From Dictyostelium firmibasis (taxonomy: Eukaryota; Evosea; Eumycetozoa; Dictyosteliales; Dictyosteliaceae): a stretch of 64,000 nt of DNA. Made by a program: the position numbers and the translations under genes. Below, piece by piece: positions 50,896 to 62,960 of this stretch (positions are counted from its first letter, which is position 1; every line of letters starts with the position of its first letter). The notes under the pieces were generated by a model. The model made no database searches. It was given only the letters and a program-made list of their open reading frames with translations, and had not been told where the DNA came from. The stretch spans positions 2,652,501 to 2,716,500 of the forward strand of contig CM069767.1 of NCBI GenBank assembly GCA_036169595.1, given 5' to 3'.

Positions 50896-51012
50896 ATACA
50901 CACCTGCACCATCTAAACCAATCATTAAAATTCTAGTGTTTCTTTTTCCCTCAAATAATGAAAATATATTTCCAAAAAATGAAGCTATATTATTAAAAAA
51001 TTCTGATAACAT
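50265..51012 (-). CDS. Arf-family small GTPase lacking Gly2
   Basis: Three exons on the minus strand, 51012-50904, 50735-50815 (middle) and 50638-50265, total 187 residues. Motifs: P-loop GLDGAGKST (intron inside the motif), switch [10 protein letters not shown], interswitch [21 protein letters not shown]4 NKQD, G5 SAVLGNGI. The body is very close to ARF1 (for example [20 protein letters not shown]). The N terminus is [20 protein letters not shown] instead of MG..., so the usual myristoylated Gly2 is absent while the amphipathic helix remains. It would act in vesicle budding or membrane recruitment, with a different anchoring mode. D. discoideum encodes several Arf-related proteins; I cannot assign which. 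Confidence 0.92.
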
Positions 51013-51501
51013 TTTTTTTTATTTTTTTATTTAAAAAGGTTTTAATCTTAATCTTTGTTGTTTTGTTTTTTTTTTTTTTTTTATTTGTTTTGAATGAATA
51101 ATATATTTTTTTTTTTTTTTTTTCATTTTATAGTGGTGAAAATGGGGAAATAAAAGTTATGACTGTATAATTTAAACATTGAAAATGTATCGCTGGTAAT
51201 TTCAAAACAATATAAACCACATAAAACTAAAAATATATTCAAAAACTCAACACCTCGATTTTAATTTTTTTTAATTTTTTTTTAATTAATTTTTTTTTCA
51301 TATTTTTTTTTCACAAAAAAATTTTATATTTATTTTTTTTATATTTTTAAAGAAATAAACAAGAAATATTATTATTTTATATTACATAATAATAACTAAT
51401 AAAGAAATTTAATTTATTTATTTGGTTTATTTTTATTTAAAAAAAAAAAAAACATTAAAAAAAAAAAAAAAAAAATCAAAAAAAAAAAAAAAAATATCAA
51501 A

Positions 51502-60581: not shown

Positions 60582-60837
60582 TTTTTTATTATTCTATATT
60601 ATATTAAGAAGTCCTTAATGCTGTTTCAAATATGAATGGGTCTATTGGTTGTTAATCAAATGAAATTATGAACCCTCTGTTTCCAAATTGTTGTTGTGGT
60701 ATTGGTTTTTTTATTGCGGCCAGACTTTTTTTTTTTTTTTTAATATTAATGATTATTGTATGACCTTAGTCATTAAATATCCTGATTGGTATCTTGAAGC
60801 TTCTTTGTAAATTTGATTTCAAATCCATATCCAAATT

Positions 60838-60840
<3 letters not shown>

Positions 60841-60874
<34 letters not shown>

Positions 60875-60958
60875 TATTGGGATTAGAATTTCTAATCACC
60901 ATGTTTTTTTTTTTTTGTTGTTGTTTTTTGGAAGTCGAGCTTTTTTCCGGTTGATTAT

Positions 60959-60994
<36 letters not shown>

Positions 60995-61083
60995 TATTGG
61001 GATTAGAATTTCTAATCACCATGTTTTTTTTTTTTTTTTGTTGTTGTTTTTTTGGAAGTCGAGCTTTTTTTCCGGTTGATTAT
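60841..61083 (-). repeat. Two tandem copies of a ~120-bp A-rich tail unit
   Basis: Copies at about 60868-60959 and 60988-61083 share the sequence taatattattgggattagaa and the perfect palindrome GATTAGAA-T-TTCTAATC. They also share a long T-run, gttgttgtttttt, ggaagtcgagc and ccggttgattatg. Read on the minus strand they are A-rich and directly follow the tRNA-like units, as a tail would. A Lys-rich open frame here is an artefact of the A-runs. Confidence 0.85.
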
Positions 61084-61497
61084 GAGGTGTGTTATTTATG
61101 ACCACGTTACTTCGTGGTATGACCTAAGGCTCGAACCAAGGCCACGGAGACTGTGTGATTCAGCGCAGAACCACTACGTATAGCCTCCAATAATGAGGGT
61201 TTAATTATGACCACGTTACTTCGTGGTATGACCAAGACTCGATCCCAAGGTCTTGACCACGGAGGCTTGTGATTCAGCTGAACCACTACGCTAAGCCCCC
61301 CGGGGTTGATTATGAGGTGTGTTATTTATGACCACGTTACCTCGTGGTATGACCTAAGGCTCGAACCAAGGCCACGGAGACTGTGTGATTCAGCGCAGAA
61401 CCACTACGTATAGCCTCCAATAATGAGGTTTTAATTATGACCACGTTACTTCGTGGTATGATCAAGACTCGATCCAAGGTCTTGGCCACGGAGGCCA
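61074..61497 (-). repeat. Tandem array of tRNA-like (SINE-like) units
   Basis: Four units on the minus strand: A 61097-61188, B 61206-61304, A' 61327-61418 and B' 61436-61495 (cut short). A and B alternate, so a dimer of about 230 bp is repeated (61074-61303 and 61304-61497). Unit B has a perfect pol III A box TAGCGTAGTGG (61283-61293) followed 37 nt later by a B-box-like GGATCGAGTC. Unit A has a good B box GGTTCGAGCC. Each unit ends in the hairpin ACCACG/CGTGGT (gaccacgttacttcgtggt). Acceptor stems do not close, so these are tRNA-derived rather than tRNA genes. Length, box spacing and the following A-rich tail fit a SINE. Confidence 0.65.
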
Positions 61498-61559
61498 AAT
61501 TTATTGGTTATAATTGAGTATTATTTTTTTTTTATTAATATTATTGACTTATCCACCAA

Positions 61560-61569
61560 GGATCGAACC
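61560..61569 (-). promoter_or_regulatory. External B box downstream of tRNA-Lys
   Basis: On the minus strand GGTTCGATCC lies 32-41 nt beyond the tRNA 3' end, within a CCAGGG/CCTTGG stem. Dictyostelium tRNA genes are known to carry such an extra B box downstream, where it can bind TFIIIC. A relic of a second tRNA is the alternative. Confidence 0.6.
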
Positions 61570-61600
61570 CCTGGTCTAAGGTTCTGCGATCGAAATATTT

Positions 61601-61673
61601 CGCCCAAAGGGGGGCTCGAACCCCCGACCACAAGGTTAAAAGCCTTGCGCTCTACCGACTGAGCTATCTGGGC
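61601..61673 (-). tRNA. tRNA-Lys (anticodon UUU)
   Basis: 73 nt on the minus strand with all arms: acceptor GCCCAGA/TTTGGGC, D arm GCTC...GAGC with AGTCGGTA loop, anticodon stem CAAGG/CCTTG around loop CTTTTAA, variable TGGTC, T arm GGGGG-TTCGAGC-CCCCC, and discriminator G. The anticodon TTT reads AAA/AAG, the most used Lys codons in this genome. No intron. No T4 terminator follows on the transcribed side for about 1 kb (see findings). Confidence 0.97.
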
Positions 61674-61687
61674 ATTTTTGAAATTCT

Positions 61688-62156: not shown

Positions 62157-62960
62157 TTCACCCCTCCTTTAAATTTTATGCTGGGTTTCTTCTTGGAAGT
62201 ACAACCGGTAAAGTGGCAACTGCTGGACCTTGGACATAATTTGGTAACTGTCTATCTTGAGTTGTTTCTTGGATTCTACTAGCATTTTGGACCGGAGTTC
62301 GAGGGATATAATTATTTGGAATGTTGTTATCAGTTCTGGCTTCTCTAGACGAAGGTTGAGAATTAACTACCGGCGAAGGCGTTGGTAAAGTTGGAACTCT
62401 TTTTTGAATTACGGGTGGAATATTGAGAATTAATTTGGCTAATCTATGAATATAAACTTTACAATTATCTACATTTTGTAATGGTGAAGCTTTTGAATTT
62501 AACGGTAATTCAATTCTGACAACCTGTGGAGAGAGTATCTCAATAACTTTAAATGGGCCTACCCATTTTGGAAGAAATTTATATGTTTGTAAATCTTCTG
62601 GAGCTGATCTGTTTTTAAGGAGTATAAAACAACCAATAGTAATCTTTGAAATATTGTATTTTTTCTTACTTCTTTTTTCAATTGATTCGGAAATATTTCT
62701 TTTGGCGGTACTAATAGATCTTTTAACCATTCTTTTAACTCTATCACCATATGCTTCGCCTGTTACTGTTCTGGCTGGGAATATATTTTGATCAACTAAC
62801 AAATCCAAAGGAACGGTGGGTTCTCTACCATAAAGTAACCTGTACGGAGTAAAGCCTGTGGACGTTTGTATAGCCATTCTATAAGCAAATCCCTCCGAAA
62901 TAAAGTATTTTTATGGTGTCTTTGGTGCATTGGTTTGTTCAGCAAAAATAATCGATCTGC
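61688..62960 (-). mobile_element. 3' remnant of a Ty3/gypsy LTR retrotransposon
   Basis: A fossil on the minus strand. Parts: the C-terminal piece of an integrase frame (62176 to about 62940) with the motif STGFTPYRLLYGREPTVPLD and a GPY/F-like module around FLPKWVGPFKVIEI; a purine tract (about 62157-62171); and the 3' LTR (61688-62156). The rest of the element is missing from this site, so it is broken, and what remains shows about one to two breaks. The LTR lies 14 bp upstream of the tRNA-Lys. Dictyostelium LTR elements such as DGLT-A and Skipper-2 insert in that position, so one of those groups is likely. The open integrase remnant suggests moderate age. Confidence 0.8.

Follow-up and report, generated by a model that had tools for sequence, protein, structure and literature searches.

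Social amoebae are the hosts of the best studied LINEs that target tRNA genes. Close behind a tRNA-Lys gene of Dictyostelium firmibasis, short units with A and B boxes of the RNA polymerase III type follow one another in series, which raises the question of whether they are members of a mobile family or the product of a local duplication, and of what sets their position next to the gene. The window, that is, the whole analysed stretch of 64,000 nucleotides, corresponds to C3:2652501-2716500 of the genome searched, which has 31,455,843 bases in 12 contigs, the largest of 9,412,997. Strain TNS-C-14 was described with 31.5 Mbp in 12 contigs, six of them main contigs of 9.4 to 3.9 Mbp, and 379 tRNAs (PMC11193728); contig C6 of the analysed assembly has 2,984,280 bases, compared with 3.9 Mbp for the smallest main contig in that description. 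In the same work, the search for transposable elements used tblastx and Repbase entries from D. discoideum, and the word SINE is absent from its main text. The term was not found in PMC5035012 either. Default RepeatMasker runs gave 88 "SINEs" in D. discoideum and 57 in D. purpureum, with no family named (PMC4683709). Among the matches listed for the open-access literature, a scope outside which most subscription papers and preprints fall, no described dictyostelid SINE family was present. In what follows, G1 to G5 and SINE-2 are labels coined in this analysis, and L with a number denotes a fetched genome stretch.

A SINE inside a SINE behind a tRNA-Lys gene

Two dimers of about 230 bp lie at 61074-61497 with the minus strand as the sense strand, sharing 172 nt at 98% identity and a spacing of 230. 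An earlier note on this DNA had described alternating units with hairpins ACCACG/CGTGGT, and these were found at 61101-61118, 61210-61227, 61331-61348 and 61440-61457. Its observation that one unit has the good A box and the other the better B box holds as well. In the younger of the two elements, unit A (unit B of the earlier note) carries the A box TAGCGTAGTGG at 61283-61293 and a weaker B-box core, GATCGAGTC, at 61236-61244, and unit B carries the B box GGTTCGAGCC at 61128-61137; the same better B box recurs in unit B of the second dimer at 61358-61367.

All features of the array are on the minus strand, and its target gene, tRNA-Lys (ttt), lies upstream at 61600-61674 (ARAGORN; Rfam RF00005, 72.6 bits). 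Behind the gene, a motif search located an external B-box-like motif, GGGGTTCGATCC, at 61560-61571, analogous to those at TRE3 targets (PMC5911963). The array starts about 105 bp behind the gene, where the 5' copy of an 11-nt target-site duplication, AATAAATTTGG (61495-61505), precedes an older dimeric SINE that is 5'-truncated and starts within unit A. The 5' part of this older SINE spans 61304-61494, and closes with the 11 nt CATAATCAACC (61304-61314), the 5' copy of the duplication that arose with the insertion of a younger, full-length dimeric SINE at 60960-61303, which is composed of unit A, unit B, a 3' module, the tail CATGGTGATTAGAAATTCTAATCCCAATAATATT (60990-61023 by pattern search, with a predicted hairpin) and a poly(A) of 30. 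The second copy of CATAATCAACC (60949-60959) begins the 3' part of the older SINE (60842-60959), with its 3' module, tail (60870-60903) and poly(A), and the 3' copy of AATAAATTTGG follows at 60831-60841. Adjoining the insertion point of the older SINE is a 3' fragment of the TRE3-like LINE G1 at 60726-60836 (BLASTN to L046, 96% over 51 nt and 79% over 70 nt).

The earlier note had taken the dimer itself to be duplicated. When the inner SINE and one copy of CATAATCAACC are removed in silico, a continuous older SINE is restored, and the duplicated dimer is therefore a nested insertion, with a full-length SINE sitting in an older, 5'-truncated copy and a separate target-site duplication for each; a tandem higher-order repeat is ruled out by this empty-site join. 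The interval 61074-61497 proposed before does contain the dimers, but the elements extend through the 3' module, the hairpin tail and the poly(A) to 60842.

Several other features were seen around the array. Beyond the SINEs and the LINE fragment, a minus-strand frame of 136 aa at 60171-60581 matches the L7Ae/L30e/S12e family (Pfam, 91.1 bits) and looks like ribosomal protein S12. A minus-strand frame upstream of the tRNA-Lys gene (62176-62910) shows a weak match to SH3_Tf2-1, the end of an LTR-retrotransposon integrase, at 21.9 bits with a cut-off of 30; no long terminal repeats of at least 60 nt were found around the integrase fragment in L045:2600-8501. An old fragment at 50992-51137 resembles the 3' end of LINE G5 at 69%, and the genome's best RVT_1 match is outside the window at C3:2719232-2719705.

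A dispersed family with marks of retroposition

A search of the same assembly, which the earlier note had suggested, gave at least 58 matches to a 227-base dimer query (40 of 262 candidates scored). Pattern matches over the genome numbered 106 for the dimer head, 129 for the tail and 143 for the 3' module, with zero for the reversed-pattern controls, and heads and tails are spread over contigs C1 to C6. In viral contigs, one 26-base pattern had no match. From the surroundings of the dimer matches, 37 stretches were taken for study, chosen for their dimers, and the 44 best copies, including the inner copy of the window, were selected by length (more than 210) and identity (more than 90%). The pairwise identity of these 44 bodies has a median of 98.7% and a minimum of 96.05%, in a choice of best matches that favours young copies.

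The element is about 340 bp long and ends in poly(A). The 5' start is common to 43 of the 44 copies within 4 nt (exactly GGGGGGCTTAGCG in 36), the 3' module GCTCGA(C/T)TTCC is present in all 44, the tail core in 42, and a poly(A) of at least 6 behind the tail in 43; the copy in L035 has an interrupted tail. For 31/44 copies, the flanks hold an exact target-site duplication of 8 nt or longer; when the flanks were permuted (200 runs), the number of such copies averaged 0.3 and never exceeded 3. The A and B boxes stand at tRNA spacing, with one good and one weaker box in each unit, and TTTT is found in none of the 44 bodies, which is compatible with transcription by RNA polymerase III. Given the dispersed matches and the duplications, the dimers at 61074-61497 are copies of a tRNA-like dimeric SINE, a retroposon dispersed in the genome, as the earlier note had supposed. 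Copies confined to this locus, or a pseudogene cluster lacking dispersed relatives, which it had named as grounds for giving up the SINE reading, are not what was found.

Descent of the units from tRNA, also proposed there, is borne out in part. In L030:1700-3500, which holds copies of the dimer, of a monomeric sister SINE and of a third family, SINE-2, Rfam at E<=10 returned the true tRNA-Asn and scored no tRNA match in the units, in agreement with the claim that they do not fold as tRNAs. In comparisons with local tRNA genes, the monomer unit scored best against tRNA-Trp at 57.3 (maximum of 100 shuffles, 54.9), and one SINE-2 unit reached 56.9 against tRNA-Asn (maximum of 100 shuffles, 50.8). 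By contrast, unit A (48.8, shuffle maximum 56.0), unit B (50.5, 53.9) and the other SINE-2 unit (51.6, 55.1), each with 100 shuffles and local tRNA genes, did not exceed their controls, and for units A and B the likeness to tRNA genes was not significant against shuffled sequences.

Placement at tRNA genes and the partner LINEs

In the 37 stretches, 34 of the 44 dimers follow a tRNA gene called by ARAGORN at a distance of 52-368 bp, and all 34 have the orientation of the tRNA. The other ten comprise five at 442-1110 bp behind a same-strand tRNA gene, three with the nearest gene on the other side, and two with none in the piece. A test blind to SINEs used tRNA matches scored by Infernal (63, of 2401 candidates), from which nine on contig C12, which we take to be mitochondrial, were dropped and 54 kept. 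Within 500 bp of these 54 genes lie at least 15 dimer heads (100 of 106 taken), all of them downstream and on the same strand, with 14 heads at 67-169 bp behind the gene and one at 448, while random relocation of 100 elements placed a mean of 0.18 and a maximum of 4 near the 54 genes (2000 runs). The nearness to tRNA genes is weakly supported by a B-box distance test, in which a B-box-like motif occurs within 300 nt upstream in 35/44 copies, against 18/44 on the opposite strand of the flanks and 9% of random windows. The placement is that of TRE3 LINEs of D. discoideum, which sit about 40-150 bp downstream of tRNA genes in the same orientation, behind an internal or external B box (PMC5006619, PMC5911963).

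The sister monomer (for example L030:3030-3230) resembles unit A at about 78-82% and a part of unit B at 83-86%, with 145 heads and 233 tails matched in the genome, the tails including the LINE's own and truncated copies. At least 13 of its heads (100 of 145 taken) are within 500 bp of the 54 tRNA genes and all are upstream, 12 on the opposite and one on the same strand; ten of the 12 lie at -49 to -72 from the gene. In the 37 stretches chosen for dimers, 20/21 monomers are upstream and opposite, one is upstream on the same strand, and none is downstream. Duplications of at least 9 nt were seen in just 6 of 13 scorable monomers, two of them being T runs. The tail of the monomer, ...AGATTCGAACACATCCAATTGGATGAGGTTATT-An, is identical to the 3' end of LINE G3, a LINE with an open frame of 1159 aa. 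A possible origin of this tail from SINEs sitting in the LINE was tested and set aside, because the end of ORF2, the UTR and the tail are contiguous in seven G3 matches (76-100% identity). A G3 copy in L038 stops 47 bp before tRNA-Glu on the opposite strand, and a LINE of another group, G5 (L071), is about 50 bp upstream of a tRNA gene, again on the opposite strand. The monomer, G3 and G5 thus occupy the positions of TRE5 LINEs, about 50 bp upstream in the opposite orientation, as given in PMC5911963 and PMC5006619.

The 5' end of G3 was seen to consist of tandem modules of about 180 bp (L038:1242-1795 and L070). To us these modules are reminiscent of the A-modules of TRE5-A.

SINE-2 has 43 genome matches (for example L026:1950-2060, and in L042, L011, L024, L030 and L061), measures about 233 nt before the poly(A) and contains two B-box units. 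It ends in ATAGGT-An like LINE G4, with which it shares the closing stem and the end motif. Eight of the 43 have one of the 54 tRNA genes no more than 500 bp away, and these eight all lie downstream on its strand, with the 5' end estimated as 52 nt before the pattern.

For the dimer, the candidate partner is LINE G1, with an open frame of 1229 or 1244 aa in which a reverse transcriptase (125.8 bits) and no further Pfam domain were found; the protein matches unnamed proteins of D. discoideum with 59-61% identity over 64-86%. Two G1 copies lie behind tRNA genes and on their strand, one starting 99 bp from tRNA-Gly and the other 120 bp from tRNA-Gln with a piece of SINE-2 in between, and this placement is TRE3-like. 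The likeness between the G1 end (a hairpin and TAATATT-An) and the dimer tail is confined to the form and the final 7 nt. In local alignment, the dimer tail scores 18 against the G1 end, below G3 (30), G2 (21) and the A-rich G4 (48) and G5 (51), and among the LINE ends examined none bears the dimer's tail. The partner is most likely a TRE3-like LINE such as G1, a choice made from target position only. The tail with CATGGTG was at one point taken for the 3' end of G1 and was rejected: the sequence of G1 copies closes with ...TAATAT(T)-An, and where such a tail follows, as it does in some copies, it is that of a 5'-truncated SINE sitting in the poly(A). Eight further tail matches that lacked a listed head were examined and each was a SINE copy, complete or truncated, and in a ninth stretch a G1 end precedes another such SINE tail.

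Many dimers stand in or behind older elements. The left flanks of 18/44 dimers match a SINE or LINE piece (five dimer, eight SINE-2, two G1, two G4 and one G2), although one G4 match, at L012:2356, is A-rich and that dimer actually follows the tail of another dimer. Of the 13 flank hits to SINEs, six break off behind the B box of the first unit, at positions 90-96 of the dimer or 86-90 of SINE-2. In L046, L048, L051, L052, L055 and L058, 5'-truncated dimers are inserted right in the G1 poly(A), which seems to be an extra landing site.

These observations bear on other readings of the family. In the first, the dimer would be a relaxed SINE whose partner reads the poly(A) end alone, the downstream side being due to the state of chromatin or DNA behind genes of RNA polymerase III. 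The tail without significant match to the LINE ends examined and the insertions in LINE poly(A) stretches speak for it, but the tail core is kept in 42 of the 44 copies, and the monomer also ends in poly(A) yet lies on the other side of tRNA genes, so that poly(A) alone does not set the side; we hold this reading to be doubtful. A short, internally deleted LINE and no SINE at all, comparable to TRE5-A.2 of D. discoideum or the SIDEs of Drosophila, is a second reading, and a very improbable one: deleted LINEs moving in trans do exist in D. discoideum (PMC5391098) and the 3' end of the monomer is LINE sequence, but the body of the dimer has tRNA-like A and B boxes at tRNA spacing and, in a window search that included one complete G1 LINE, matched SINEs alone, the matches to G1 being an A-rich spacer and the LINE 3' fragment. 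Finally, a tRNA pseudogene cluster or a local or segmental duplication, suggested by units in series close to a tRNA gene, can practically be set aside, as the copies are dispersed with the same ends, poly(A) and differing flanks with target-site duplications rather than local copies without marks of retroposition, and the local doubling is a nested insertion.

Proposed course of retroposition and its meaning

The explanation preferred here, and regarded as highly probable as a whole, is a dimeric tRNA-derived SINE that is copied by a LINE and targets tRNA genes, on a side that follows from its tail. The 3' tail, the targeting of tRNA genes and the sister families are additions to what the earlier note contained. 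RNA polymerase III would transcribe the dimer from its internal A and B boxes. A LINE reverse transcriptase, most likely of a TRE3-like element such as G1, to judge from the target position, would then take the 3' end of the RNA, and the poly(A) and the target-site duplications suggest conversion to DNA by target-primed reverse transcription. The target of the new copy would be either a tRNA gene, with insertion about 50-230 bp downstream, or another B-box unit, with insertion behind it, and the copy would have the orientation of its target. Since a SINE itself carries B boxes, each copy may become a landing pad for further SINEs, and the targeting of TRE3 behind an internal or external B box (PMC5911963) fits such self-targeting. 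In the window, the presumed order is the tRNA-Lys gene, then the older SINE behind it, then the younger SINE in the older one. The monomer, with the same kind of body and the tail of a TRE5-like LINE, would be led to about 50 bp upstream in the opposite orientation. From the placements of dimer and monomer it would follow that the side of the tRNA gene goes with the tail, and hence with the partner LINE.

Parts of this scheme are known from other systems. With tRNA-derived SINEs, dimeric ones included (PMC3414825), the dimer has in common its shortness, the lack of an ORF, A and B boxes, a tail, poly(A), duplications and dispersal; it differs in that its position next to tRNA genes is fixed in side and strand, that it belongs to a dictyostelid and that its units score no tRNA match. 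TRE3 codes for ORF1 and ORF2, whereas the dimer of about 340 bp is non-coding, with a tail that differs from the end of the TRE3-like G1. TRE5-A.2 is mobilised in trans to its parent's target and is a LINE without ORF2 (PMC5391098), whereas the monomer is a tRNA-like body with the LINE tail only. In the R2 and R2/R1 hybrid SIDEs of Drosophila, as here, a foreign head on a LINE 3' end goes to the target of that LINE; unlike the SINEs described here, these SIDEs have 28S rDNA as target, a ribozyme head, co-transcription with rRNA and no RNA polymerase III promoter (PMC3414825).

A natural tail swap is a somewhat favoured account of the two placements: one kind of body of the RNA polymerase III type, in which the tail sets the side through the partner LINE and the element's own B boxes let arrays grow while sparing the coding genome. 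If this is true, the choice between about 50 bp upstream on the opposite strand and about 100 bp downstream on the same strand is decided by the 3' tail. SINEs sorted by their tails to fixed sides of tRNA genes would pose a testable question in a tractable haploid, namely whether the LINE machinery picks the site and the RNA tail merely picks the machinery. In the same way, self-targeting through B boxes, if true, would explain why a compact genome has nested arrays next to its tRNA genes.
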